Assembly (NCBI RefSeq): GCF_029955155.1
Contig: NZ_JAPNOZ010000004.1
Location: 67,599 to 131,598 of the forward strand
Reading direction: 5' to 3'
Source of the DNA: Psychrobacillus sp. NEAU-3TGS
Lineage (GTDB): Bacteria; Bacillota; Bacilli; Bacillales_A; Planococcaceae
DNA: 64,000 bases
This document shows positions 47,463 through 62,979 of this stretch, piece by piece. Each line of letters starts with the position of its first letter. Within the stretch, counting starts at the first letter, position 1. The position numbers and the translations under genes were made by a program. A model generated the notes under the pieces. That model worked only from the letters and a program-made list of their open reading frames with translations, searched no databases and was not told where the DNA came from.

Positions 47463-49096
47463 CTAAAATAGTTTATTATCAGAGAGGGGAGCTACCACTA
47501 ATCCTTTTCCGACTAAGGATTCGTGAGCTGATTTTTTCTCTTTCCTTCCATTATCAACTATTTTAAAAATTATATTCGTAGTTCTTTTATTTTTGGAATT
47601 ATTAACAGCTGCTTTATTAGTTTCCATACGTTCATTAATAATCGTTAAAGCTAATTGAACTGCTTCTTGAGGTGTAATCTCCTTGTTTTCCTGGATTACT
47701 TTTTTTGCTGTCATTTCCGCTAACTTTTCATTTATATCTAAATTCATTAATGTAATTGTAACTTTTTGAAGGATTGATATTTCCTTCTGTTCTCTTTTTT
47801 CTGCTATTTTCTCTTTCTCTCGGGTAATCTTATCTCTCATATTTATTGGAGTTTTTCTTTGTAAAAGGAAATCTTCAATATCAAAAGGTGTTATATCATC
47901 ATACCTTGCAATATCCTCTAACCTACCTTCCCTTAGAGCTTTAAGCATGGGTTGTAGCATTTTTAAATATTTTTCGCTAACTTTTCTTATCATATTAGGA
48001 GAAATTTTTTCATATCCTTTCTCCATTGCATAAGACTGCGCAAACATAAATAATTTAACTGCAATGTCCACGATTCCTTGGCTCTCAAAATACATTACTT
48101 CCAGCCATTCTTTCGTTAGATCAACTTTCTCCTTTGTCCATTGATACTTCCACATTCTAGTCATTAAGACTTCCCAATTGTCATCCATCTTCATTTGTTC
48201 CCAGATTAACTCACCGTGACCACCAGCTCTTCTTGCTTGTCGAAAATTAACTTGAAGTAATTGCCTTGCTTTTGTCGTTCCAATAAACACCATTGGAATT
48301 CCAATTTCATTTACTAATGTGACAAAAAATTCATCATACTATTAGAAACTTCAGCTTTTGCCGTTAACATGTGCTGAATCTCATCAATAACTAAAACACC
48401 CAAACAATGCGCTCTGGCCAATTGTCCGATATAGATAATTAAGAAACTTAAAGACTCTCGTTTGAGACCTTGTTTAAAATAGTCGGTACCTAAAGTCTCA
48501 TCAATTTTTGTAATAAAATCTAAACATAGCGTCTTCGGAGACCCGTCATTTGGGCAGTTTAATTTTATCCATGGAATCTGAATAATATTTAAAGGAAATT
48601 TATGGATTATTACTTTTGGGTATAGCGAAAGTATCCTTTCAATCGCTGACGATTTCCCCATCCCAGAATATCCTATAATAGTTAAGCTAGATGCTGTTTT
48701 TCTTATATCAGGTGGAAGGCCTAGAGGTTCTTTTTTCTCTAATCTTCGATGCATTTCTAATAATGTTTCTGCATGAGTTTTGTTTTTAGGATTTCTATAA
48801 ATATAACCATTTCTTAATAATCTTGAAAAACTAACTTCTAACTCCAGCGTTTGTTCCAACGGTTGATAAAACCTTGTTAATCTAGTCAGTGCATGGTAAC
48901 GATGTAAGACCGAAAGACTTCTTTCTTTTTCGCTATATTCTGGTAAATACCTTAGTTGCTCATATGACTCGTCTATAGAAAGCATAGGTGGAAGAGCTTC
49001 TATTAATGGGTTGCCTCGATATTCTTCAATATCCTGTTCAATGTATTCCGCACTAAATGCAAATTCTCCATTATCTAATTTAATTAGCTTCTTCAT
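47463..49096 (-). pseudogene. tnsC: TnsC transposition ATPase, split by a 1-base frameshift
   Basis: AAA+ regulator linking target selector and transposase. The N-terminal ORF (49096-48314) has Walker A IIGYSGMGKSSAIERIL and Walker B LGVLVIDEIQHML. The continuation in another frame starts VTLVNEIGIPMVFIGTTKARQLL (sensor 1 region), then NFRQARRAGGHGELIW (arginine-finger region), and ends in a charged C-terminal tail like that by which Tn7 TnsC contacts TnsA and TnsB. A single A missing from the A6 run at 48324-48329 explains the break. The restored length of about 544 residues is normal for TnsC. If the break is real the element is immobile. Confidence 0.88.
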
Positions 49097-51246
49097 TTTT
49101 TATTTCGTCCTTCGTTTGCAAATAATTGTTTGATCGAAATTCTCAAAGGATTAATCTCTTCAATGTCTTCATTTTGCTGTGAGATACTCGATAACTTCTC
49201 TTGATTATCAATTTCCAAGTTAAATGCTTCTTCCTCTCTTCGTTGAATGCGTTCTTCTCGTTTATGTTCCTTTATATTTTTTGTTCTTTTAGACTTGCTT
49301 ATCGTTTTATCCAGCTTTTCCTCTTTATTCTTATTAGCAACTTTCACTATATTCTCAATGTCCTTGAATAAGTTAACCTCTTTTTCTAGCTGAGTATGTT
49401 CAAAGCCTTTAAAATCTTCTTTTTCATTTTCTAGAAGTTGTTCAATTTCTTCTATAGTCTTATCTTTATATCTATCTTGATGATTTAACAGTGTACACGG
49501 AATATAACGTTCTTCATCATTGGTATGTAAATAAATTACATCCATATTTCTTGGATCATAAGAAAAGTCTACTTTCCAACTTCCATCTTTTCTTGCCTTA
49601 GAAAACCACTGTTCATTAATTGCTCTAGCTGTTGTATAAAACATCTTTTTGTATCTTATTCCATTTTCAGTAATAGTAGCCTTATCTCTAGGCAACAAGT
49701 AAAACTTTATATCTTTGATGTTAGGTTTTTTCAATTTACCTGCAGCATTTTTTACTCCCCATTCCCATAACTTTATTGGTATAGGTTGAACATTATCTTT
49801 TATCTGTTGTTCACTTCTGACGTAATCTCCCATATAAAAGTTGTTATTATAAAAAAGAATGAACTTTATTAAAATTCTGGTGTATTCCTCAATATTAAGA
49901 CTAGCTTCTAATCGGTAATCTTTTGCTCCTCTTTCTCCATGATCTTCGTGTACATATCCAGGTAGAAATGGTTTTATTTTCTCTTGTGAAGTATCAAATA
50001 ATTTTTCAACTATCCCCTTCCAGTCTGGACGGTAGGGAGGAGTGTTGCTAATGTTAGTGCCTAATCCTTCAATCAAATGGTTTACTCCCTGACTAGCTAA
50101 TTCACCTCTGTCACCAATAAAATTGTTTGGTAAATGCATAGATGGCCACTCATCCATTGATATATTAATTCCATATCTTTTGCAGTATTCTGTTTTGTCC
50201 ATACACGCATTTGCAATTGCACTCATCATCGCTTTCCAAGAGGCATTCTCTAAACCTACATAAAGGCCAGTTATAAGATGTGTATATACATCTACGATGA
50301 AATAAGTAGTAGGTCGACCAACTATCCAGTTTGGGTTAAGACGATTTACTAAATATACGTTACCTGGTGTTGCATCAATTTGATAAGTATCACCAGGTCC
50401 TTCCGTTTCTGCTGTTGACGAACCTAGTACTGCTCTGTAGTTTTGTTCAAATTTCTTTGGACCTTCTCGAGCTATGGTGACTTTATCATTTTTGTATTCA
50501 TTATTAAACCAGTAATAAAATTGCCTTTTAGTAGGTCTTTCCTCTTCAGGTTTAAGTACCAACTTTTCATCATTTGACTCATCAAAATATTTAAATTTTA
50601 TAAAATAATCACGAATCATCATTTTATAGGTAAAGCTAAGAGATGGTTTTTTTGTACTTAAATAATACTTTTTTATGGATTTTTCAAATTGATTTTTTAT
50701 CTCTGGAGTAATAACAATTCCTTTTTTCCCGTTAACTTTTGGTCTTCCTGTCTTCTTCTTATAGGATATTTCAACTTTATTTAAAGCATAGTCTGGAAAT
50801 ACAGAGTCTTTCACTTTTCCCCTTTGCCAATATTTCCTTAAATTTTTATAAAATGTTTTGTGAGACTTAATACCATACTGATTCATGGCTTCATCTATAA
50901 CTTTTTTTCGTTTATCAAAATGATAAATTTCAGGCTCTAGATTTACTAAATCTTTAATAGTAATCCAAGCTTTATCTCTAAATTCAATATCCTTTTCAGT
51001 TGGTTTTCTTTTTAAGAAAACTCCACTATCCACCTGAATAGAGTATTCCGCACTCTCTATTTTTTCTTCAACATCTTTAATTAACATTTGAAAAGGAAGT
51101 GCAAGACGTTCATTTACATCAATAACGTAAATAACCTTATAACTTTTGTTAATCCACAAGATTCTGTAAACTATTTCAGTATCAACATTTACAATAAGCT
51201 CATTAACCGATAGAACTACCATAGTTTCTGTTGGAACTCCTCTCAT
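49093..51246 (-). CDS. tnsB: TnsB-like transposase (DDE/RNase H fold)
   Basis: A 717-residue transposase of the Tn7 TnsB / Mu rve family. The acidic triad is intact: Asp about 291 in TYQIDATPGNVYL, Asp about 378 in NFIGDRGELAS, Glu about 414 in WKGIVEKLFD. The N-terminal 250 residues contain HTH domains that bind the transposon ends; a Mu-type beta barrel follows, with a lysine-rich tail that should contact TnsC. It joins 3' ends to the target. It overlaps tnsA by 44 bases and tnsC by 4 bases (ATGA). The exact start is unsure (51246 or the ATG at 51222). Confidence 0.93.
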   Translation of the reverse strand: MRGVPTETMVVLSVNELIVNVDTEIVYRILWINKSYKVIYVIDVNERLALPFQMLIKDVEEKIESAEYSIQVDSGVFLKRKPTEKDIEFRDKAWITIKDLVNLEPEIYHFDKRKKVIDEAMNQYGIKSHKTFYKNLRKYWQRGKVKDSVFPDYALNKVEISYKKKTGRPKVNGKKGIVITPEIKNQFEKSIKKYYLSTKKPSLSFTYKMMIRDYFIKFKYFDESNDEKLVLKPEEERPTKRQFYYWFNNEYKNDKVTIAREGPKKFEQNYRAVLGSSTAETEGPGDTYQIDATPGNVYLVNRLNPNWIVGRPTTYFIVDVYTHLITGLYVGLENASWKAMMSAIANACMDKTEYCKRYGINISMDEWPSMHLPNNFIGDRGELASQGVNHLIEGLGTNISNTPPYRPDWKGIVEKLFDTSQEKIKPFLPGYVHEDHGERGAKDYRLEASLNIEEYTRILIKFILFYNNNFYMGDYVRSEQQIKDNVQPIPIKLWEWGVKNAAGKLKKPNIKDIKFYLLPRDKATITENGIRYKKMFYTTARAINEQWFSKARKDGSWKVDFSYDPRNMDVIYLHTNDEERYIPCTLLNHQDRYKDKTIEEIEQLLENEKEDFKGFEHTQLEKEVNLFKDIENIVKVANKNKEEKLDKTISKSKRTKNIKEHKREERIQRREEEAFNLEIDNQEKLSSISQQNEDIEEINPLRISIKQLFANEGRNKK

Positions 51247-52051
51247 TAATAATCATCTCACTCAAGCTTATCTTATGGGGTTGTATAGCTTTTTCCATAT
51301 CATATGGTTCAATATACCGGCGAGCATATAAATGTCTCATATAATAAATACTGGAACCGTCCTCAAGATTGTAAAAAGAATCAAATTCATTACAACATGT
51401 AATTGACTGCTTTTGTGGATTCGCCTTCAGCTCTTTAGCCAAATAATCTAAGAAGTGCAGGCTCATTTCTTCTTCCCGACTATTATCAAGGTTGTAATAC
51501 TCATGTATATATTTCATATTCTTCATAAATTGATTGGACATTACTTTTTCGTCAATAAGAGCCCATTCTATATCTCTATCTTCCCAATATTGTCTTTCTA
51601 TCTCCAGTTTTTCAATGACGCGAGGGTTTTCTAACTCACTACTAGGTTTTATAGAACGAGCAATCTGTATAATCTTGTTATCCACACGGCTTGTTATTAA
51701 AAAATCAGTGGTCATTACGATAGGTATTTGAGTGCTATTATCCATTGGATGGGTGTGATTCTTCTCAGAGGCTATTTTTAGCGTGGTTTCACGCTCAATC
51801 GGATATTGTTCTCTTATGTCTATTACTTTCTTGCTCCATTCTAAGTAATAGAAATAAGAGAGCTCTAAATCAGAGAGGAATTGGTGTATTCTATTGGTTT
51901 TCCAACCTTTTGGACGATGAGATCTTCCTTTACTAGGTACGTCCTGAATTGTTATCCATGGTTTATAATGATTAAGTTCACCAGAACCTCTACCTTCCGC
52001 ATAAAATCTTGCTATCTTCTCCTCTGTCCAATTATATTTATTAACCGACAC
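51203..52051 (-). CDS. tnsA: TnsA-like endonuclease
   Basis: Restriction-endonuclease-fold subunit that cuts the 5' ends of the element, giving cut-and-paste movement. Active-site residues correspond to Tn7 TnsA Glu63, Asp114 and Lys132: the Glu in FLSDLELSYFYYLEW with IDIREQYPI, the Asp in VMTTDFLIT, and the Lys in IARSIKPSSEL. A C-terminal winged-helix TnsA-C domain follows. The frame is open to 52111, but GGTGGTGAT precedes the GTG at 52051, and the residues before it do not resemble the family, so 52051 is preferred (282 residues). Confidence 0.9.
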   Translation of the reverse strand: MSVNKYNWTEEKIARFYAEGRGSGELNHYKPWITIQDVPSKGRSHRPKGWKTNRIHQFLSDLELSYFYYLEWSKKVIDIREQYPIERETTLKIASEKNHTHPMDNSTQIPIVMTTDFLITSRVDNKIIQIARSIKPSSELENPRVIEKLEIERQYWEDRDIEWALIDEKVMSNQFMKNMKYIHEYYNLDNSREEEMSLHFLDYLAKELKANPQKQSITCCNEFDSFYNLEDGSSIYYMRHLYARRYIEPYDMEKAIQPHKISLSEMIINERSSNRNYGSSIG

Positions 52052-52204
52052 ATCATCACCACCAGTCGACTTCTTTTTACTATTAATAACAAATATTCTG
52101 ATAATTTTCAAGCAAAAGGCAATATTATGGCTTTTTTATGTAAATTTGTATTACCATCATTTAATTATAATTTTTCATACTAGATAAACTAAAATAGTTG
52201 CAAA

Positions 52205-52275: not shown

Positions 52276-52620
52276 ATGGAAACATCATCGATTGAAATTG
52301 AAAGGGCTGCCACTATATTAAAACTGTTGGGTGATAAAACAAGACTAACAATGCTTAAAATGCTTGATTCGCATGATTATTGTGTATGTGAATTTGTTGA
52401 AATATTTAAGGTTAGTCAGCCTGCCATTAGTCAACACGTACGGAAGTTAAAAGATGCTGGACTAGTGGGGGAAACAAGACGAGGTCAATGGATTATCTAT
52501 TCATTGAACAAGGAAAGTGATGTTTTTCCATTGGTTCAGAACTTGATGAATCATCTTCCAAACCAAGATTTTAAACTACAAGAACTAGAAGAACAGGGAT
52601 TGCGTATCTCATGTGAATAA
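52276..52620 (+). CDS. arsR: ArsR arsenic-responsive repressor
   Basis: A 114-residue SmtB/ArsR winged helix. The As(III) site is the Cys-x-Cys of [11 protein letters not shown] at the start of the recognition region, matching the classical ELCVCDL motif. DNA recognition is [33 protein letters not shown]. Repression is relieved when As(III) or Sb(III) binds the cysteines. GAGAGGAGGT precedes the ATG. The stop overlaps the next frame (TAATG). Confidence 0.95.
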
Positions 52621-52634
52621 TGGAGGTTAGTATT

Positions 52635-53929
52635 TTGTCACCAGTCATTTTAGCAGCATTGATTTTTATCGTAACGCTTATCTTCGTAATTTGGCAGCCA
52701 AAAGGATTAAATATCGGCTGGTCTGCTTGTGGAGGAGCCGTTATTGCGTTATTAGTAGGAGTTGTTGAGTTTAGTGATGTCATAGAAGTAGTTGATATTA
52801 CTTGGAATGCAACACTATCCTTTATTGCGATTATCCTCATCTCTTTAATTTTAGATGAGATCGGATTATTTGAATGGGCTGCTTTACATATGGCGAAAGC
52901 TGCAAAAAGTAATGGTATTAAAATGTTTGTTTATGTCAGTCTTTTAGGAGCAATTGTTGCTGCCTTTTTCGCTAATGACGGGGCTGCATTAATTTTGACA
53001 CCAATTGTCTTAGCGATGGTTCGTAATTTGAATTTCAAAGAAAAATGATCTTTCCTTTTATTATGGCAAGTGGGTTTATTGCGGATACAACTTCGTTACC
53101 ATTTGTCGTAAGTAACCTAGTTAACATTGTATCAGCTGATTTCTTTGATATTGGTTTCGTGGAATATGCTTCTAGAATGATTATTCCTAACATATTTTCT
53201 TTGATTGCAACTATTAGCGTTTTGTTATTTTATTTTAAAAAAAGCATTCCACGAACGTACGATTTATCTAAGTTAAGAGAACCAAAAGAAGCAATTAACG
53301 ATATAAAAATGTTCCATCTTTCATGGTATGTTCTTGCTATATTGGTTGTTGGTTACTTTAGCAGTGAATTCATCAACATTCCTGTTTCCATTGTAGCCGG
53401 AATAATAGCTATTTTCTTTATTATAATGGCAAGAAGAAGTAGTGCTGTCGATACAAGAAGTGTTATTAAAGGAGCACCATGGAATATTGTATTTTTCTCA
53501 ATTGGTATGTATGTGGTTGTATACGGACTAGGGAATGCAGGACTTACAAGTGTTTTAGCTGGCGTTATAGAAGTAGCTGCAGAACAAGGACTATTCGTAG
53601 CTACGATGTCGATGGGCTTCATTGCAGCCTTCCTATCATCCCTAATGAATAACATGCCAACCGTTATGATAGATGCTTTAGCAATTGCTGAAACGAATAC
53701 TTCCGGAACTATCCGAGAAGCACTTATTTATGCTAACGTGATTGGATCTGACTTGGGACCAAAAATCACTCCAATCGGTTCACTTGCAACGCTAGTATGG
53801 CTTTATGTTTTATCCCAAAAAGGCGTAAAAATTTCATGGGGTACTTATTTTAAAACAGGTATTGTCTTAACAGTCCCTATTCTATTCATTACATTATTAG
53901 GTCTATATATTTCGTTATTGTTTTTCTAG
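52635..53929 (+). pseudogene. arsB: ArsB arsenite efflux pump, split by a 1-base frameshift
   Basis: A 12-helix arsenite/antimonite exporter. The first part begins at the TTG at 52635 (GGAGG 8 bases before it; an ATG in frame at 52620 has no ribosome site) and runs to NLNFKEK. The remainder, [28 protein letters not shown] to the end, is shifted by one. One A added to the A5 run at 53041-53045 gives about 431 residues, the usual ArsB length. As written, the stop and an ATG overlap as ATGA, so two half-proteins could still be made by coupling. Confidence 0.9.
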
Positions 53930-54005
53930 TATGAGCAATCAATTAATGTAACTCTAAATAAACTAGTACTTTTTATAAAGTTGAAACCAAAGGAGATTTC
54001 TAACT

Positions 54006-54425
54006 ATGTCAAAAAAAACACTTTACTTTTTATGTACAGGAAATTCATGCAGAAGCCAAATGGCAGAAGCTTGGGGGAAAAAATACTTGAGCGACGAGTG
54101 GGAAGTTCTCAGTGCAGGAATTGAGGCACATGGCTTGAACCCTAATGCTGTTAAAGCAATGAATGAGGCTGGAATAGATATTTCTAATCAGACTTCAGAT
54201 ATCATTGATATGGAAACATTAAATAATGCAGATTTTGTAGTTACACTTTGTGGGGATGCTGCAGATAAATGCCCAATGACACCACCTCATGTGAAACGCG
54301 ATCACTGGGGTTTTGACGACCCTGCAAAAGCTCAAGGAACTGGTGAAGAGAAATGGGCCACTTTCCAAAGAGTTCGTGATGAAATTGCAGAGAGAATTAA
54401 GCATTTTGCTGAGACAGGTGAATGA
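54006..54425 (+). CDS. arsC: Arsenate reductase, thioredoxin-dependent
   Basis: A 139-residue low-molecular-weight-phosphatase-fold reductase that converts As(V) to As(III) for export by ArsB. The P-loop is [15 protein letters not shown] with the nucleophilic cysteine. The redox pair lies in [29 protein letters not shown] (the CGDAxxxCP motif of the Gram-positive, pI258 type). AAAGGAGAT precedes the ATG. It is the last gene of arsRBC and is followed by a strong terminator. Confidence 0.96.
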
Positions 54426-54556: not shown

Positions 54557-54603
54557 AAAAGCAATAAACTCCTCTGGTGACCAGAGGGGTTTATTGCTTT
54601 TTT
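54557..54603. terminator. Bidirectional terminator between arsC and MFS gene
   Basis: AAAGCAATAAAC.CCTCTGG, loop TGA, CCAGAGG.GTTTATTGCTTTTTT, a stem of about 20 bp. Confidence 0.9.
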
Positions 54604-55886
54604 AAAGCCACATTTGAAATTGCAATTGATTTTCCCTGCTTTAAATATGAGGTTGACCAAAGAATTGCTAAGAATAAAAATAAAATTGACCCTCCCCAGT
54701 AGATGTAGGAGAAACCATATTCCAATCCTATGATCAAAAAACTAATAAATGGACCAATGGATGCCCCGAGATCCTGAGCCATTGAATATGTAGTAAGAAA
54801 TGAAACTACATTTGAGTTCTTTGAAATGTCTAAGGCAATTGCATCAACTATTGTCGTAAGCGAAGTTGCCGCAAACAAGACAAGAAAAGTAAAGAAAATC
54901 AATACAAGAATTGGTAGTTCATTAGAAATGAAACCATACGTCAAACTTGCAAAAATTAATGAGATAATTAATACAGGTACTCTTCCTTTTTTCCCATCAG
55001 ACCAAGTTCCAAAACGTACTCCTAAAAATGGTCCCCATACCCATTGAATCGATAAGATAATACCTGCTAGAAAAGTTGCACTGATCACAGTACCGAACAA
55101 GATGACACTTTCTCCATGGTTTTGCTCTATTACAGAACTTAATGTCGATATAAATATCCCTTGAAATAATAAAGTGATACAGAAACCAGTAAAAACAATT
55201 CTTCCTCTGCCTTGTTTGAGACTGTTTATAAATGAATTAACTTTAAAAATAACCTTCTTCGTATTATCTTGCTCATGATCTTTTAAAGGAGTGGTTTTAA
55301 CATATAAGAAAATCAAAGGTAGAGCTAACAGAGTAAGACTCCCGAAAATAAACGAAACAATACTTAAACCCAATATTGGCACCAGTAACCCTCCTGCTAA
55401 CATGCCTACCAAGCTTCCTAATCGATATAGTCCATTGAATAGACCAATTGATTTTCCCCTATTATTTTCTTCCGTATTAAAGGCCACAATCGATAAACCC
55501 CCAATCCTCAAAAAGGACCATGCTATACCCCATACCCCGCGGAGAATAATCCATGCTATAAATCCATTTAATATTCCATAGCCTAATGTCGTAATACTAC
55601 CTAAAATGATTGCAATTACTAAACCTGTTTTTAGAGATATCCTACTATATATCCATCCAACAATCGGATTGAAGGGCAGACGGATAAAGCGGTTAATAGA
55701 CAGGAGTACTCCAACTTGCCAAATCGAGTCGAGACCTACTTCTTTCCAATATAAGGGCAAGGCAATGTATAACATTGAATCGCCAAACAAACTTATTGCA
55801 GTGATCAAGGCAACAATCACAATTACAGACGGTTTACTTTCAGCTTTACTCGATTCGGACAATACTATCACTCCTAACTCAGCCAT
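54591..55886 (-). CDS. MFS transporter in arsenic cluster
   Basis: A major facilitator of up to 431 residues with 12 helices: SLFGDSMLYIALPLYWKEVGL, the loop GWIYSRISLKTGL, and KGRVPVLIISLIFASLTYGFI in the second half. Substrate unknown. The location suggests efflux of an arsenical, in the manner of ArsK or ArsJ, but no diagnostic motif was recognised. AGGAGTGAT lies 8 bases before a TTG at 55862, a possible true start 8 codons in. An operator-like palindrome at 55929 connects it to the MarR regulon. It is divergent from the flavin monooxygenase. Confidence 0.78.
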   Translation of the reverse strand: MAELGVIVLSESSKAESKPSVIVIVALITAISLFGDSMLYIALPLYWKEVGLDSIWQVGVLLSINRFIRLPFNPIVGWIYSRISLKTGLVIAIILGSITTLGYGILNGFIAWIILRGVWGIAWSFLRIGGLSIVAFNTEENNRGKSIGLFNGLYRLGSLVGMLAGGLLVPILGLSIVSFIFGSLTLLALPLIFLYVKTTPLKDHEQDNTKKVIFKVNSFINSLKQGRGRIVFTGFCITLLFQGIFISTLSSVIEQNHGESVILFGTVISATFLAGIILSIQWVWGPFLGVRFGTWSDGKKGRVPVLIISLIFASLTYGFISNELPILVLIFFTFLVLFAATSLTTIVDAIALDISKNSNVVSFLTTYSMAQDLGASIGPFISFLIIGLEYGFSYIYWGGSILFLFLAILWSTSYLKQGKSIAISNVALKKQ

Positions 55887-55928
55887 GAATTAACTTAAGA
55901 TTCTTACTTGTAAGGGTATGCTAATTTC

Positions 55929-55941
55929 TTGTAAATTGCAA
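55929..55941. promoter_or_regulatory. Putative MarR operator O1 (MFS gene)
   Basis: TTGTAAATTGCAA, reverse complement TTGCAATTTACAA. It differs at one base from O2 at 56071 and lies about 45 bases upstream of the MFS gene. Confidence 0.55.
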
Positions 55942-56070
55942 CTAAATATTAAATGGAATTTTTGTTTACTTTCGCTTGTGCCATTAGCCTGTAGGATATT
56001 TGAACAAGAAAAATCTCGCTTTTTTAAGGAGTATTATTATTTTGGGGTATTGTTTACACTAAAAAAATGA

Positions 56071-56083
56071 TTGCATTTTACAA
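56071..56083. promoter_or_regulatory. Putative MarR operator O2 (flavin monooxygenase gene)
   Basis: TTGCATTTTACAA, of the TTGCA-N3-TGCAA type with one mismatch in the right half. It lies in the divergent promoter region shared with the MFS gene. Confidence 0.5.
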
Positions 56084-56230
56084 ATAAATAAAGTATAAAT
56101 GTTTTAAGAGAAAAAATTCCGTCTTATTAAACATCTAAGTATTTTCCAAAATGGTGTAGCTTAAATAATGCACATGATATATTTTTTCTCTAAATTTACT
56201 TCTATTTTACAAATAAAAGGGGGTGTTAGG

Positions 56231-57286
56231 GTGAAAGGAATACTCGATACAATAGTCATTGGAGGGGGCCAGGCAGGCCTTACTTCGGGTTATCACTTAC
56301 AAAAGAGAGGACTTAGATTTCTAATATTGGAGGCAAGTGCTCAGGAAGGTGGTTCTTGGCCACTATACTACGACAGTCTTAAACTTTTCTCACCAGCAGG
56401 ATTTTCATCACTTTCAGGATTAAAATTTCCCGGAGAGAAAAATCGTTATCCTAATAGAGATGAAGTAGTTCAGTATTTAAAGGATTATAGGAGACATTTT
56501 CAATTGCCAGTTCGAACCAACCAACGCGTAGAAACCGTTGAAAAAGGTGGTGAAGGTTTTATTGTTCGTACGATGACAGGAGATATTTTTCAGGCGAGAA
56601 CCATCATTAATGCGACCGGCTCGTTTAATAATCCATTCATACCAAGTATAGCGGGGCAAGAAGAGTTTAAAGGATTAACACTTCATTCCTCCGAATACAA
56701 AAACTCGTCGCGATTTGACAATCAAAGAGTGGTGATTGTAGGACGTGGAAATTCGGCAATACAAATTGCTGTTGAACTGTCCGATGTGAGTCAGACATCA
56801 TTAGCCGTGCTTCGCCCTGTCCAGTTTGTCAAACAACGGATATGGGGTCAGGATTTGCATTTTTGGATAAAACTAATTGGCTTTGACACATTTCCATTTT
56901 GGAGATTTAAGAAAACTGCACCGAGTTCAAGTGCTGTAAACGATACCGGTAATTACAAAGAGAGATTAGAGGCTGGAAAACCGGATCAACAACCGATGTT
57001 TAAGTCCTTTTATCAAGATGGTGTTATTTGGTCAAATGGGGTAAAAGAACCGGTGGATACAATAATCTATGCAACTGGATACAGACCACAATTTCCATAT
57101 CTTGAAAAGATTGGAGCGTTGGATAATGAAGGAACGCCTACACATAAAGCAGGTATAAGCAACATTCCTGGGCTTTATTATGTAGGGTTGGAAGGACAGC
57201 GTTCCTTTGCTTCTGCTACTTTAAGAGGGGTAGGACCTGACGCACAGTATGTTGTGAAAAAAATATTGCATTATCTTTATCATTGA
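56231..57286 (+). CDS. Flavin-dependent monooxygenase (ArsO-like)
   Basis: A 351-residue FAD/NAD(P)H oxidoreductase. The FAD dinucleotide motif is VIGGGQAGLTSGYHL, followed by GGSWPLYYDSLKLFSPAGFSSL, which is typical of ArsO-type proteins. The second nucleotide motif is VVIVGRGNSAIQIAVELS, and the ATG motif is TIIYATGYRPQFPYL. ArsO genes accompany many ars operons, but the reaction is not established. The frame is open to 56168, but AAAAGGGGG precedes the GTG at 56231. It lies divergent from the MFS gene and has an operator-like site upstream. Confidence 0.82.
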   Translation: MKGILDTIVIGGGQAGLTSGYHLQKRGLRFLILEASAQEGGSWPLYYDSLKLFSPAGFSSLSGLKFPGEKNRYPNRDEVVQYLKDYRRHFQLPVRTNQRVETVEKGGEGFIVRTMTGDIFQARTIINATGSFNNPFIPSIAGQEEFKGLTLHSSEYKNSSRFDNQRVVIVGRGNSAIQIAVELSDVSQTSLAVLRPVQFVKQRIWGQDLHFWIKLIGFDTFPFWRFKKTAPSSSAVNDTGNYKERLEAGKPDQQPMFKSFYQDGVIWSNGVKEPVDTIIYATGYRPQFPYLEKIGALDNEGTPTHKAGISNIPGLYYVGLEGQRSFASATLRGVGPDAQYVVKKILHYLYH

Positions 57287-57308
57287 AATTAAATGGCAAA
57301 GTGTTAAA

Positions 57309-57333
57309 ACACTTCAATAAATGATTGAAGTGT
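57309..57333. terminator. Hairpin after ArsO-like gene
   Basis: ACACTTCAAT, loop AAATG, ATTGAAGTGT; a perfect 10-bp stem without a clear T-run, between convergent genes. Confidence 0.5.
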
Positions 57334-57347
57334 ACGGTTGATTGATA

Positions 57348-57803
57348 TTAAATTGTTTCGTTTTTCTTAAGTTCTTCTACTAACTTATTAAGTCTGTCTA
57401 TTTCTTTTTTATCTTTTCTAGCTCTGTTACTTTGGATATCATTTGATAATGAAATGAACAGTAGTGCAAGTGAATACAATGTCATAAAAGTTTGTATTTC
57501 CACAGCAGTCATTATTGATTTTGTTGTAAAGGTTACAGCAGCCATGTAAATTGATATCGGAACCGAAAATAATATTAACATTTTTGCTGAAAACCGTAGA
57601 AGCTTCAATATAGTCTTATTAAATCTATTCGGACTTGTAATTTTAATCTCGTCAAATATGTCGCTCAACATTACAGAAATAGCAAATATAGAAGCAAATA
57701 CAGTTAATCCAACCATAATACCAATTGGAACTTCAATTCGTAAGATTGCCAGAGTAAAGAAACCCGCACCAATTGATCCTAACAAAATATTTGATTTTGG
57801 CAT
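57348..57803 (-). CDS. Hypothetical four-helix membrane protein
   Basis: A 151-residue membrane protein, not recognised. Four hydrophobic segments: GSIGAGFFTLAILRIEV, GIMVGLTVFASIFAISVML, LLRFSAKMLILFSVPISIYMAAV and FMTLYSLALLFISLS. It ends in a charged, heptad-like tail (RARKDKKEIDRLNKLVEELKK) that could form a short coiled coil. It lies between the ArsO-like gene and marR on the opposite strand and has no MarR-type palindrome upstream, so it may not belong to the same response. Confidence 0.65.
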   Translation of the reverse strand: MPKSNILLGSIGAGFFTLAILRIEVPIGIMVGLTVFASIFAISVMLSDIFDEIKITSPNRFNKTILKLLRFSAKMLILFSVPISIYMAAVTFTTKSIMTAVEIQTFMTLYSLALLFISLSNDIQSNRARKDKKEIDRLNKLVEELKKNETI

Positions 57804-57944
57804 CTAAATTCAATCCAATCATTTTCTTCTAATGTTACCACTATTATCAAATGAAGTTATAGTAAGATTTTAGTAAAAATAATAGAATTCAATTGATCAA
57901 ACTAATAGTGAAAATGGTTTTTAATGAAATTTTAATGTTATTTG

Positions 57945-57957
57945 TTGCACGTTGCAA
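57945..57957. promoter_or_regulatory. Putative MarR operator O3 (marR autoregulation)
   Basis: TTGCA-CGT-TGCAA, a perfect 5+5 palindrome 35 bases before the marR ATG. Confidence 0.6.
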
Positions 57958-57992
57958 GTAAATGGTGTATACCTTATATAAGAGGTGAGATC

Positions 57993-58439
57993 ATGGAAAA
58001 CAAACGTGAGCTATTTCAAGTACTTACTCGTAGGTTCGGACTCCTTAATAAAAATTGTTGTTCAATTGGAGCCGTGGATATATCATCCGTACAAAGTCAC
58101 ATTCTTTATGAAATAGATAAACAAACATCACCATCCATGCAACAAATTGCAGAGGCGATAGCAATGGATATAACGACTTTTAGTCGACAAATACAGACGC
58201 TCATTAAAATGGAATTAGTAAAGAAAACACCTTCCTCAGCAGACAAAAGGGTATCTATTTTATCTCTTACAGTACAAGGTAAATTTGTTGCTACGACCAT
58301 TGACGAATCGATGAATGCTTATTTAGAGGAAGTATTCTCGCATATGAACGAATTTGAAAGAGAAACAGTTATTCGTTCTATAAAATTATTAAATCAAGCT
58401 ATGTCCAAATCAAGTGTTTGCTGTACGCCTTTACTTTAA
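57993..58439 (+). CDS. MarR family regulator with terminal Cys-Cys pairs
   Basis: A 148-residue winged-helix regulator. Its MarR core is ISSVQSHILYEIDKQTSPSMQQIAEAIAMDITTFSRQIQTLIKMELVKKTPSSADKRVSILSLTVQG, with the DKR wing typical of the family. Unusually there are vicinal cysteines near both ends: Cys22-Cys23 (LLNKNCCSIG) and Cys143-Cys144 (SSVCCTPLL). These could bind As(III) or act as a thiol switch across the dimer. The open frame begins at 57942, but GAGGTGAGAT precedes the ATG at 57993. Operator-like palindromes lie before it and before three neighbours. Confidence 0.85.
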   Translation: MENKRELFQVLTRRFGLLNKNCCSIGAVDISSVQSHILYEIDKQTSPSMQQIAEAIAMDITTFSRQIQTLIKMELVKKTPSSADKRVSILSLTVQGKFVATTIDESMNAYLEEVFSHMNEFERETVIRSIKLLNQAMSKSSVCCTPLL

Positions 58440-58475
58440 GCAAGAGTATGTCTTGCTTAAAAAAATACTAATTAC

Positions 58476-58488
58476 TTGCATAATGCAA
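58476..58488. promoter_or_regulatory. Putative MarR operator O4 (second flavoprotein)
   Basis: TTGCA-TAA-TGCAA, a perfect 5+5 palindrome (13 bases) 57 bases upstream of the flavoprotein ATG, in the marR-flavoprotein gap. Confidence 0.6.
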
Positions 58489-58544
58489 TTAATTAGAACA
58501 TTAATACTGGTAATACAACAACAAAATTTTATGGAGGTATTAGT

Positions 58545-59921
58545 ATGAATACTATTGAATTGAAACAAGTAAAGACTGGCGGTTGCTGTGTACCTGCTGC
58601 AAAGACAAATATAGATTTTGTAAAATCTACAAACAAGGAATTACCGATAGCAATTATAGGTGCTGGCCCTGTAGGTTTAGCAGCGGCTGCCCATCTAGCT
58701 AATATTGATGAACGTTTTATACTACTTGAGTCTGGTGATCGTGTTGGAAGTAATATTCTAAACTGGGGACATGTGCGGTTATTTTCACCATGGCAATACA
58801 ACATCGATAAGATTGCGAAAAAAATTCTAGAAAAACACAGCTGGAATGCACCATCCTTGGATCAATTACCTTTAGGTAAAGAGTTAGTTAATGAATATTT
58901 GGAGCCTTTATCGAAATTACCTGAAATAAAACCTTTTTTATCACTGAATACAAAAGTTGTTTCCATAAGTAAAAAAGGTTTAGATAAAATGAAAACTGCT
59001 AATCGTGACAATTCCCCCTTTGTTTTGTACCTTGAACAAAATGGGTTATCAAAAAGAATAGAAGTAAGGGCAGTTATAGATGCGACTGGAACTTGGTCCC
59101 ACCCTAATCCAATTAATGCTGATAGTATTTGGACAAAAGAAGAAATTGAATTAAAACAACATGTTTATTATGGTATTCCTAATATTGAGGGGGAGCATAA
59201 AGAAAGATACAAAGGCAAACGAGTTGCTGTTGTAGGTGGTGGTCATTCAGCAATTAACACGATATTAGAATTATCACAGCTTGATAATATAGATATTACA
59301 TGGATTATTCGAAAGAAAAATGTAGAGGATGCATACGGTGGAGAAGATAAAGATGCTCTTAAAGCAAGAGGTGAGTTAGGCAGCCGTATACATCAATTAG
59401 TTGATGCTGGTCAAATCAAAGTATATACTCCTTTTCATATTCACCAACTAACAAAGACCAACGATGGTATTGGAATAACTGGAGACTCGAATGGTAGCAA
59501 AATTACTCTACCTCCAGTAGATGAAATCATTGCAAATACAGGTAGCCGTCCTGACTTTTCATTTATAAGAGAAATCAGACTAAGTATAGATAGTGCTACA
59601 GAAAGCGTTGAAGCTCTTGCTCCTTTAATTGATCCAAACCTTCACAGTTGCGGAACAGTACGACCTCATGGTGAAGAAGTATTAAGACAACCTGAAAAAG
59701 ATTATTATATTGTTGGAATGAAAAGTTATGGTAGGGCTCCAACATTCTTAATGGCGACTGGTTATGAACAAGTTAGATCCATTGTGGCTCATCTTTCGGG
59801 TGATTTTGAATCAGCAAATAAGGTAGAACTTGAATTGCCTGAAACTGGTGTATGTAGTATTAATTTAACTCAACAAAATTCTAATCAATCATGTTGCGGA
59901 ATGGAAGCATCTAAATGTTAG
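58545..59921 (+). CDS. FAD/NAD(P)-binding flavoprotein with terminal Cys-Cys pairs
   Basis: A 458-residue flavoprotein of the flavin monooxygenase/disulfide-reductase superfamily. FAD motif IAIIGAGPVGLAAAAHLAN at about residue 34, then GSNILNWGHVRLFSPWQYN; NAD(P) motif RVAVVGGGHSAINTILELS at about residue 223. Vicinal cysteines flank the enzyme: Cys14-Cys15 (KTGGCCVPA) and Cys450-Cys451 plus Cys458 at the very C-terminus (QSCCGMEASKC). C-terminal Cys pairs recall mercuric reductase. An arsenical or thiol substrate is plausible but unproven. The ribosome site ATGGAGGTATT is strong. Confidence 0.8.
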   Translation: MNTIELKQVKTGGCCVPAAKTNIDFVKSTNKELPIAIIGAGPVGLAAAAHLANIDERFILLESGDRVGSNILNWGHVRLFSPWQYNIDKIAKKILEKHSWNAPSLDQLPLGKELVNEYLEPLSKLPEIKPFLSLNTKVVSISKKGLDKMKTANRDNSPFVLYLEQNGLSKRIEVRAVIDATGTWSHPNPINADSIWTKEEIELKQHVYYGIPNIEGEHKERYKGKRVAVVGGGHSAINTILELSQLDNIDITWIIRKKNVEDAYGGEDKDALKARGELGSRIHQLVDAGQIKVYTPFHIHQLTKTNDGIGITGDSNGSKITLPPVDEIIANTGSRPDFSFIREIRLSIDSATESVEALAPLIDPNLHSCGTVRPHGEEVLRQPEKDYYIVGMKSYGRAPTFLMATGYEQVRSIVAHLSGDFESANKVELELPETGVCSINLTQQNSNQSCCGMEASKC

Positions 59922-59933
59922 AGGTGAAGCAAC

Positions 59934-60158
59934 GTGACTGTAAATAATAGTGCTAATTTATCTAAAGAATACTTTATTTCCTACCTAAAACTGGTTATGG
60001 AATCCAGATCTTATTCTCTAGAACAAGCGCAAACTTATATGTTTAACAACTTTTTTAGAAAAAGTAATGACATTTACGGCAAAGACAGTTACCGCAATTT
60101 CTTGCAGTCAATTGAGGTATTAAAGGAAGAAAGAGTTTCTCAGCCAATGCAAAGATAA
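59934..60158 (+). CDS. Small hypothetical protein (74 residues)
   Basis: Starts at a GTG preceded by GAGGTGAAGCAAC, 12 bases after the flavoprotein stop, so it is probably co-transcribed and coupled. The sequence is helical and polar (NLSKEYFISYLKLVMESRSYSLEQAQTYMFNNFF) with no cysteines and no known domain. It is the last gene before a terminator and may be an accessory subunit of the flavoprotein. Confidence 0.6.
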   Translation: MTVNNSANLSKEYFISYLKLVMESRSYSLEQAQTYMFNNFFRKSNDIYGKDSYRNFLQSIEVLKEERVSQPMQR

Positions 60159-60225
60159 AAGTGACAGTATATAATATTATTAGGCTATGTTAAAGGTAAA
60201 GGGTGAATTAAATATTCGAATTATA

Positions 60226-60265
60226 AAATGAGCTTGGAAATGTATCTCCAAGCTCATTGTATTTT
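60226..60265 (+). terminator. Terminator of marR regulon flavoprotein operon
   Basis: AATGAGCTTGG, loop, CCAAGCTCATT, then GTATTTTGTT; an 11-bp perfect stem. Confidence 0.75.
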
Positions 60266-60277
60266 GTTGTCCTTTTT

Positions 60278-60300
60278 TTACTAAAGCACCCGTTAGCTTA
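60278..60300. repeat. Dispersed repeat copy
   Basis: ACTAAAGCACCCGTTAGCTT, the first copy seen after 42.8 kb; none was noticed between 42.9 and 60.2 kb. Confidence 0.6.
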
Positions 60301-60442
60301 ATAAAGATCCTTCTGTAATTCCATTCGTTACTCTTTATTTGGAAAAAGAAATTGTTTTATTTACATATGATGTATCCTTTATCTCCTTTAATAAAAGATA
60401 CAGGGTCTATAACATTTTTATATGGCGGTTTTATCTGCGTAT

Positions 60443-60954: not shown

Positions 60955-62247
60955 TTATTCCTCCTTAGCATAATTTTGAAAGAATTGATGATTAAACTCT
61001 GGACTAAAATAATGCTTACGTCTTATCCATACAAAACCATCTCCTTTAGTGATAACTGCTACATCAATGGGACCTCCAACCGTTTCCGCATCCATTGTGA
61101 CTTTTCGTTTGAAAGATGTTAAGTTGACAAGTGCTTCAGCCATCGCAGCTAATTCTTCTTTAGGTAAAACATCTAAGATTTGCATTACAGGCTCTGTAAA
61201 ATACTTTTCTTGAAAATCATTAAGACTTTCGGATATAGACATTAGTAAGGTATCGTGATGCTCTTCCTTAACTTTTTCCCAATCATCTACTTTTGATTCA
61301 TCAATTAAATCGTCTATATAATCTAAATGTTGACTGATTCCTGCAGAAAAAAACTGTAAAATTGCATTACGTAATGAAGGTTCAATACCATTCATAAATG
61401 AATGAACCATTTCTTTTTGTGCAAATGGTCTCATAGCTGCAGTAATATGATTTTCGTCATTTACAGAACCAATTTTAATAGCTGGTCTTTCAATATACTT
61501 TAATTCTTGAAAAATAATTCCTTCAATATAGAATTCATAAAGACTTGGAAAGATCTCTTCTTCACCATATCCCGAAATAACTAACCCTGTAAATGAGTCA
61601 GAAAATATTTCCTTTTGAATTAACAAACCAGTATATGTACTCATTAAATTGATAAGATCCTCATCTATTTGGAAATTTACTGCCTCTTCAATAATTTCTT
61701 TAACAATAGAGTTGTAATTTTCTTGTATCTTTTCTAAGAAGCCGTCTTGTGTTATAGCATTCTTTTCAGTGTCAATCTTACTAATTTTTTGTCTTAATAC
61801 ATCTTTCAATACCTCAGATACATATGCTTCTTCAATTACTTCACCATTATTTATAAATCGATTTATTTCATTTGTTACTTCATTACCTAATATGTTGTTC
61901 AATGCGTTATTGCATATTCTTCCAACCAAAATTTGTTCTGCCGCATCATTGTAAAAACGAACATCACTTACAATAAAATCCAAAAAGTCATCGACATATT
62001 CTTTTATAGTATCAAATCTGTCTTTTTGAAGTTTTTTTCTGTAACTTTTTATTATTATTTCCCAAGGCACTCCCATAAATTCAGCACTACCGTATATCAT
62101 TACCCCTACAGGATGATATTTGGAAAGCGAAAACAATTTATTAGCAGAGTTATACACTTTTTGATTAACGTCAGAACCGATTGTAACCGCACTATCTGCA
62201 GCTAAAGCTACACCCATTTTGTTTAAAATACCTATTTCTGCTGTCAT
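60955..62247 (-). CDS. Proteasome-like Ntn-hydrolase homologue with long C-terminal extension
   Basis: A 430-residue protein. After Met1, Thr2 is followed by EIGILNKMGVALAADSAVTIG, with Asp exactly 16 residues after Thr2. This is the Thr1-Asp17 spacing of proteasome beta subunits and HslV. A lysine follows in NSANKLFSLSKYHPVGVMIYG, near the Lys33 position. The first 60 residues thus read like an active Ntn threonine hydrolase. The remaining 370 residues are acidic and helical, unlike HslV (about 175 residues) and unlike Anbu. No signal peptide. A 55-residue gene follows directly. Function unknown; the Ntn assignment is inference from motif spacing. Confidence 0.65.
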   Translation of the reverse strand: MTAEIGILNKMGVALAADSAVTIGSDVNQKVYNSANKLFSLSKYHPVGVMIYGSAEFMGVPWEIIIKSYRKKLQKDRFDTIKEYVDDFLDFIVSDVRFYNDAAEQILVGRICNNALNNILGNEVTNEINRFINNGEVIEEAYVSEVLKDVLRQKISKIDTEKNAITQDGFLEKIQENYNSIVKEIIEEAVNFQIDEDLINLMSTYTGLLIQKEIFSDSFTGLVISGYGEEEIFPSLYEFYIEGIIFQELKYIERPAIKIGSVNDENHITAAMRPFAQKEMVHSFMNGIEPSLRNAILQFFSAGISQHLDYIDDLIDESKVDDWEKVKEEHHDTLLMSISESLNDFQEKYFTEPVMQILDVLPKEELAAMAEALVNLTSFKRKVTMDAETVGGPIDVAVITKGDGFVWIRRKHYFSPEFNHQFFQNYAKEE

Positions 62248-62607: not shown

Positions 62608-62979
62608 TAAGAAAAAGAGTTACCAATGGCAACCCCATGATTTTTTACTTTACATCTTCTTTATATTCTTCTCCATCTAAGTACGCTTGTTGTTTGGGCG
62701 AAGTAATGCTTAACATTTCCCTAATAGCTAGTGGTATTAGGGTAGTAGCATGCTTTATTGGATTGAAGCGGAAAGCGTCCGCCCTGCAGCGGAAATCCTA
62801 GCAGATACTTCATTCAACTCACTACCGCGCAGTTTCTCTATAAGCTATATAAAGAAAGACCATTTACAACTTTTTCAATTTTTAGCGGGAAACGCTTTCA
62901 AATTCTTAACTAGCTTCATAAGTTGGGGTATGATAAGATACTTCTTATGAAAAAATCAATAGTTAAAGAAGGAATGTAA

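Follow-up and report, generated by a model that had tools for sequence, protein, structure and literature searches.

A probable ArsV-type arsenical resistance regulon under predicted MarR control in Psychrobacillus sp. NEAU-3TGS

Flavin monooxygenases of the ArsV type have reportedly been described from Ensifer adhaerens ST2 and Paracoccus sp. SY, and a subfamily of MarR regulators is likewise said to govern arsenic genes: Its Achromobacter representative, reportedly encoded beside arsV, is said to possess an N-terminal pair of adjacent cysteines and a C-terminal cysteine (Cys36, Cys37 and Cys157 being used), to bind the promoters of marR and of the oxidase gene and to be released by As(III)/Sb(III). 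Passages of a review describe methylarsenite as being oxidised by ArsH or ArsV and subsequently extruded (PMC10080717). The present analysis concerns a cassette within 64,000 nucleotides of contig NZ_JAPNOZ010000004.1 (positions 67,599 to 131,598) of Psychrobacillus sp. NEAU-3TGS, a stretch termed the window as a whole, which encodes a transporter of the major facilitator superfamily (MFS), an ArsO-like flavin monooxygenase, a MarR-family regulator, a second flavoprotein and a small protein of 74 residues. All five open reading frames (ORFs) were found where the initial annotation had placed them, while an additional 151-residue frame (ORF151) had been overlooked. We consider it probable that the locus represents an organoarsenical/antimonite resistance regulon of ArsV type, controlled by MarR and equipped with MFS export and ArsO-like oxidation; its earlier designation as an undescribed cassette has to be withdrawn, as the core resembles the ArsV enzyme (Zhang 2022; Chen 2021) and the arsenic-related MarR subfamily (Yu 2021) that are already reported in print.

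Of 261 genomes of the order, 128 contained a relative of the second flavoprotein (E <= 1e-60), as opposed to only three in an even sample of 398 genomes from across the phylum (the window's own genome being among the three). The survey of homologous loci comprised 100 of the 142 flavoprotein places besides the window's own (98 of 140 plus 2 of 2), with as much as 9 kb read to either side; their genes were assigned by means of 51 reference proteins, taken from the window and from annotated plasmids. As control, 20 of the 62 YpdA neighbourhoods were treated alike, YpdA being among the best NCBIfam matches of the flavoprotein. In the 60 loci with a MarR gene (the window and 59 survey sites), this gene was preceded by an inverted repeat that began about 50 bases ahead of the start codon in 59 of the 60 cases. 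The resulting predicted operator, a 21-bp inverted repeat of the approximate form ACTTGCA-NNN-TGCAAGT, was converted to a matrix from 42 distinct sites before MarR (the window and loci L051-L058 being left out) and applied with a score threshold of 16. The 60 MarR loci (1.14 Mb) yielded 121 sites, the 40 flavoprotein loci with no MarR gene in the stretch (0.74 Mb) and the 20 controls (0.38 Mb) none. According to the gene downstream, the survey sites preceded MarR (60), the flavoprotein (50), a GNAT acetyltransferase (41, divergent and shared with MarR), ArsO (7) and MFS (5), some of them being shared; two others were located inside the ArsO match and one was near no reference gene. The intergenic region between MarR and flavoprotein harbored a predicted site in 50 of 59 cases. 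Since the sites before the flavoprotein, ArsO and MFS genes were absent from matrix training, they constitute an independent test. Among 16 further loci selected for ArsO, MFS or small-ORF matches, sites were detected in all ten with MarR and in none of the six without, whereas among 20 plasmid loci they were confined to four with the Bacilli-type MarR, the other 16 (including a Pseudomonas locus with its own MarR) having none. As the predicted operator recurs before these genes and is absent from stretches without MarR, it is probable, as far as can be judged from sequence, that the genes for MarR, the flavoprotein, the MFS protein and the ArsO-like enzyme belong to a single MarR regulon.

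The five best operator scores of the entire window were all located inside the cassette (see Table 1). In ten random sequences generated by a first-order Markov model of the window the top score was 17.8; thus, the sites at 58472, 55925 and 57941 individually exceed the random background, while those at 56067 and 56196 rely on their recurrence in relatives. Indeed, two or more sites before ArsO were also present in L052, L185, L190, L191, L193, L194, L195 and L196, and predicted operators before the MFS gene recurred in relatives as well. The position before arsR at 52194 was not counted as operator: Its score of 15.998 is below the threshold, there was no ArsR counterpart among the survey sites, and its sequence has the appearance of an ordinary promoter (TTGCAA-17-TATTAT); the next score in the window was 11.7.

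A core ars gene (ArsB, ACR3, ArsC, ArsA or ArsD) was present within the stretch read in 71 of the 100 homologous loci compared with 0 of the 20 YpdA controls; the proportion increased to 77/100 if ArsR was included and to 96/100 if an ArsN-like GNAT was added. The cassette is consequently arsenic-linked, as had been proposed. Outside Bacilli, 12 of 14 annotated plasmid loci with a flavoprotein relative contained an arsenic gene (ars or aio) in the stretch; the exceptions with no annotated arsenic gene were Roseomonas (PadR, MFS) and Rhodococcus opacus (ArsR-type regulator, MFS). In two Ensifer records and one Rhizobium record, the homologue was located directly before arsK. Among the six Bacilli plasmids, that of Cytobacillus contained only ArsN1 and that of Staphylococcus only an ArsR-type regulator. 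The ars - ArsV-like - arsK cluster of Rhizobium rhizogenes (L151:334-14296) has Mu-transposase/TniB/TniQ gene sets on either side.

The second flavoprotein contains cysteines at positions 14, 15, 369, 437, 450, 451 and 458 only. The initial annotation had correctly listed the terminal ones, as well as Cys22, Cys23, Cys143 and Cys144 of MarR, and had missed Cys369 and Cys437, although these are the most conserved: In the 100 loci, Cys369 and Cys437 were present in 97 each, Cys450 in 92 and Cys451 in 96. A pair of adjacent cysteines was found within the last 40 residues in 92/100 loci and within the first 35 residues in 81/100, the N-terminal counts being approximate because ORF starts were picked by length. 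The three loci devoid of Cys369/437 were L074, with a broken flavoprotein frame (scored as lacking the C-terminal cysteines), and the distant relatives L147 and L148 (41-43% identity). An alignment of 45 flavoproteins from Bacillota, Pseudomonadota and Actinomycetota showed no variation at Cys369 and Cys437 and very little at Cys450 and Cys451, while the N-terminal pair is mostly a trait of Bacilli with Roseomonas as exception. According to the structural models, the cysteine tails of both proteins would be positioned outside the confident fold, as had been claimed: The predicted local distance difference test (pLDDT) was below 50 at residues 1-29 and 433-458 of the flavoprotein (also at 348-380, containing Cys369) and at 19-23 and 140-148 of MarR. 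The Pfam match to Pyr_redox_3, the invariant glycines G39, G41, G44, G231 and G233 and the fold matches identify a two-Rossmann flavoprotein of the flavin adenine dinucleotide (FAD)/NAD(P)H type. As described for ArsV, the protein is encoded in ars clusters, often together with an exporter. On account of gene order, arsK neighbours and the cysteine tail, it belongs most probably to the ArsV family of flavin monooxygenases.

The cysteine pairs of the MarR protein were strongly conserved in the 60 loci (Cys22 in 56; Cys23, Cys143 and Cys144 in 59 each), and among the 21 MarR-domain proteins (E <= 1e-4) of its own genome it is the only one with adjacent cysteines near either end. In view of these pairs and of its own predicted operator, MarR is a probable thiol sensor, in agreement with the earlier proposal. 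The Bacilli MarR proteins were placed in a supported clade with proteins of Niallia and Priestia (97/97), and distant relatives in Pseudomonas retain paired cysteines towards both ends. The Niallia relative adjoins ArsN1 and an arsenic transporter. On a Priestia filamentosa plasmid (L223:174-7403), the relative is located near genes for a radical SAM protein with an RCCLKC tail, an MIP channel, an ATP-grasp protein and a permease, which possibly constitute an organoarsenical biosynthesis cluster. On a Pseudomonas amygdali plasmid (L224:1-9647), a relative of the Pseudomonas form is divergent from the arsinothricin genes arsQ, arsL and arsM and is also found beside an ArsR-type regulator, an arsenic transporter, arsC and arsH. 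These neighbourhoods in Niallia, Priestia and at the arsinothricin genes suggest organoarsenicals among the MarR ligands. In Roseomonas (L154:7514-7936), the ArsV-like gene is preceded by a PadR regulator with an internal pair of adjacent cysteines and a C-terminal CQC, a third regulator fold bearing cysteine pairs at an ArsV-like gene.

The first flavoprotein had ArsO (NF040505) as best NCBIfam match; with 280.6 bits (278.9 in the genome search) compared with a cut-off of 425, it was not assigned to ArsO proper and is termed ArsO-like. Its start is more likely the GTG at 56231, preceded by AAAGGGGGTG, than the codon at 56168. Matches to the ArsO-like protein (E <= 1e-60) were present in 36/261 genomes of the order, 21 of the 37 places sharing at least 50% identity. 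Relatives of the MFS protein adjoin the MarR-flavoprotein pair or the ArsO-like gene in L053, L054, L064, L067, L075, L013, L017 and L185; an assignment as ArsK was rejected, there being no ArsK model among the NCBIfam matches and no BLASTP match to the ArsK of L015 (both at 1e-3). The 74-residue ORF, unlike the four other named ORFs, had no Pfam match; it belongs to a conserved ars-linked family: Adjacency was examined for the best 59 of its 117 places (E <= 1e-9), and 58 of these had a flavoprotein place no more than 3 kb away; the weaker 58 places include some beside a flavoprotein and others elsewhere. The family also occurs in ars clusters with no flavoprotein (L198, L199). ORF151, to which neither the 100 survey loci nor Pfam and NCBIfam yielded a match, was left out of the system.

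The second flavoprotein might instead act as a reductase similar to YpdA or thioredoxin reductase, directed at an arsenic-thiol adduct or a low-molecular-weight disulfide, with MarR sensing thiol stress. Indeed, YpdA (bacillithiol disulfide reductase) was its nearest fold match and among its best NCBIfam matches, and the cysteine-rich tails could exchange thiols; however, ornithine/putrescine N-hydroxylases and flavin-containing monooxygenases, which are included in the next matches, aligned with the model over more columns than YpdA, and some ars clusters possess a trxB of their own. Moreover, the seven cysteine positions include no redox-active CxxC or CxxxxC pair, which weakens the analogy to mercuric reductase drawn previously and makes membership in a mercuric-reductase-like or disulfide-reductase class unlikely; we regard the reductase function as unlikely on the whole. 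An interpretation of MarR as general oxidative-stress or drug sensor of the OhrR/MexR-like two-cysteine type, in a cassette handling peroxides or quinones, appears very improbable: Two-cysteine MarR sensors of oxidants are established and MexR in its oxidised state was among the fold matches of the regulator, but the loci are linked to ars genes, and relatives of this MarR stand beside ArsN1 and an arsenic transporter in Niallia, a relative of the Pseudomonas form beside arsinothricin genes.

The locus might also be composed of two independent units, with MarR, flavoprotein and small ORF as arsenic module and the MFS and ArsO-like proteins serving another compound. This division would be consistent with the MFS relatives in L186-L188, which have neither MarR nor operator, and with the MarR-ArsO pairs of L189-L192, where the part of the locus that was read contained no flavoprotein; given the predicted operators before MFS and ArsO in the window and its relatives, and their absence where the stretch contains no MarR, we judge it quite improbable.

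Several observations weigh against the interpretation as a single MarR-controlled arsenical regulon, the aforementioned MFS relatives being one of them. With respect to the operator, the threshold of 16 was chosen after the window had been scanned; the window sites at 56067 (17.7) and 56196 (16.9) are individually within the random range; roughly half of the 121 sites precede MarR and largely represent the training set of the matrix; and the absence of MarR refers to the stretch read, as beside L124 a MarR gene with sites lies just beyond (L193). The Pseudomonas locus without this operator is L016, and in the tree the Bacilli and the Pseudomonas MarR proteins formed separate clades whose mutual kinship was not resolved there. 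The -35 elements of the two candidate promoters overlapped by sites fit the consensus at three of six positions, and neither promoter was returned by the promoter scan. In the structural model, Cys369 and Cys437 are located in parts of low confidence, so that it gives no placement near the flavin. The full set of MFS, ArsO-like, MarR and flavoprotein genes is rare (2/100 survey loci and 2/20 plasmid loci). While the homologues did not commonly lack ars genes and cysteine pairs, the outcome that was to speak against the initial proposal, 29 of the 100 loci nevertheless lacked a core ars gene over the length read, a contig end truncating only four. As most of these 29 carry MarR, often plus GNAT, the unit of MarR and flavoprotein also occurs separately from the ars operon. 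Finally, identity with the characterised ArsV, ArsW and AdMarR is inferred.

From the observed gene set, its conservation, its ars linkage and the spread of the predicted operators, we infer the following course of binding, ligand recognition, derepression, oxidation and export. MarR would bind the shared inverted repeat before marR, the ArsV-like gene (with the small ORF), the MFS and the ArsO-like genes and keep all of them off; trivalent arsenic or antimony, or an organoarsenical, would bind to Cys22-23 and Cys143-144, presumably positioned where the dimer-forming helices of MarR end, with release of the DNA. The ArsV-like enzyme, dependent on FAD and NAD(P)H, would then oxidise the trivalent metalloid, caught by Cys369, Cys437 and the cysteine tail, to a less toxic pentavalent form; the MFS protein would export the substrate or product, and the ArsO-like enzyme may perform a related oxidation. 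The combination of oxidation and export in the initial annotation is supported in its logic, the two activities themselves being putative; the substrate is plausibly an arsenical that ArsB does not handle, e.g. methylarsenite, or antimonite. More tentatively, and with considerable doubt, the system could be a dedicated Bacilli MarR regulon against organoarsenical antibiotics, separate from ArsR/ArsB for inorganic arsenic, in which one thiol switch governs four to five transcription units (ArsV-like and ArsO-like oxidases, MFS, in relatives an ArsN-like acetyltransferase, and the small protein), with the ArsV-like and ArsO-like enzymes working in series. If true, ArsO-like proteins would gain a defined role. 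The predicted operators shared by the ArsO-like, MFS and ArsV-like genes under a cysteine-pair MarR point to a concrete inducer class and partners. The 21-bp operator would be usable in biosensors if binding holds.

Table 1. Features of the cassette and its upstream neighbours (window positions)
Feature	Position	Strand	Remarks
arsR, arsB (two frames), arsC	52276..54425	+	upstream neighbours, assigned by similarity
MFS transporter	54591..55886	-	431 aa; PF07690 E 3e-32; putative exporter of arsenical or oxidised product
Predicted MarR operator before MFS	55925..55945	-	score 22.5, second-best in 64 kb
Predicted MarR operator before ArsO-like	56067..56087	+	score 17.7; overlaps TTGCAT, 17 nt from TATAAA
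Second predicted operator, just before likely ArsO-like start	56196..56216	+	score 16.9
ArsO-like flavin monooxygenase	ORF 56168-57286, likely 56231..57286	+	351 aa from GTG; cysteine-free
ORF151	57348-57803	-	151 aa; between ArsO-like and MarR genes
Predicted MarR operator before MarR	57941..57961	+	score 21.4; overlaps TTGCAC, 17 nt from TATACC
MarR-family regulator	57993..58439	+	ATG start; 148 aa; PF01047 E 1e-10
Predicted MarR operator between MarR and flavoprotein	58472..58492	-	score 26.3, best in window
Second flavoprotein, ArsV-like	58545..59921	+	458 aa; PF13738 E 4e-23; Cys-rich tails
Conserved small protein	59934..60158	+	74 aa; GTG start; 12 nt past flavoprotein stop

The neighbouring ArsB and ArsC share 83-85% and 72% identity, respectively, with their counterparts on the Lysinibacillus plasmid NZ_CP106863. 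The arsB gene (52620-53929) is divided into two overlapping frames (142 and 294 aa) compared with a single frame of 431 aa in the Lysinibacillus relative, and represents either a pseudogene or a sequencing error. Tn7-like genes (47463-52111) end adjoining arsR and encode TnsA (51203-52111), a TnsB-like protein (49093-51246) and a TniB-like AAA protein (48314-49096); the latter gene may run on in another frame at 47463-48293 and would then be broken. The cassette is not claimed as transposon cargo, the Tn7-like genes of genome G133 being far from its flavoprotein locus. Downstream, a 430-aa ORF (60955-62247) showed a weak match to the proteasome beta subunit (TIGR03634, E 2e-4), and short repeats at 60200-60305 and 62768-62843 recur many times in this genome as well as in others of Psychrobacillus.

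In the open-licence literature, no account was found of the Bacilli operator, of ArsO-like and MFS genes in such a regulon or of a MarR with arsK and an FAD-dependent oxidoreductase; among the papers listed, none by its title concerned an arsenite-linked vicinal-cysteine MarR of this kind (PMC8060452 being judged by passages) or, for ArsO with MarR, the cassette. Like ArsV, the second flavoprotein is found in ars clusters, and the homologues preceding arsK in Ensifer and Rhizobium are 46-48% identical to it and share Cys369, Cys437 and the C-terminal cysteine pair. Unlike ArsV, it represents a Gram-positive branch with an additional N-terminal cysteine pair and predicted MarR control. The regulator resembles the arsenic MarR reported from Achromobacter in adjoining an ArsV-like gene, in its N-terminal cysteine pair and C-terminal cysteines and in having predicted sites upstream of marR and of the oxidase gene; it differs from the Pseudomonas MarR proteins (the numbering Cys36, Cys37 and Cys157 holds in that of Pseudomonas nitroreducens), to which it is 24-27% identical and which form a separate clade, the Pseudomonas locus being devoid of this operator. 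In contrast to the reported system, the ArsO-like and MFS genes here also carry predicted sites. The MFS protein is clustered with an ArsV-like gene like ArsK and ArsW, but had no BLASTP match to the L015 ArsK at the E-value given above. In summary, the core of the cassette is most probably a MarR-governed ArsV-type unit as already reported, while the novelty lies in the 21-bp predicted operator of Bacilli and in a predicted regulon that also takes in the ArsO-like and MFS genes.

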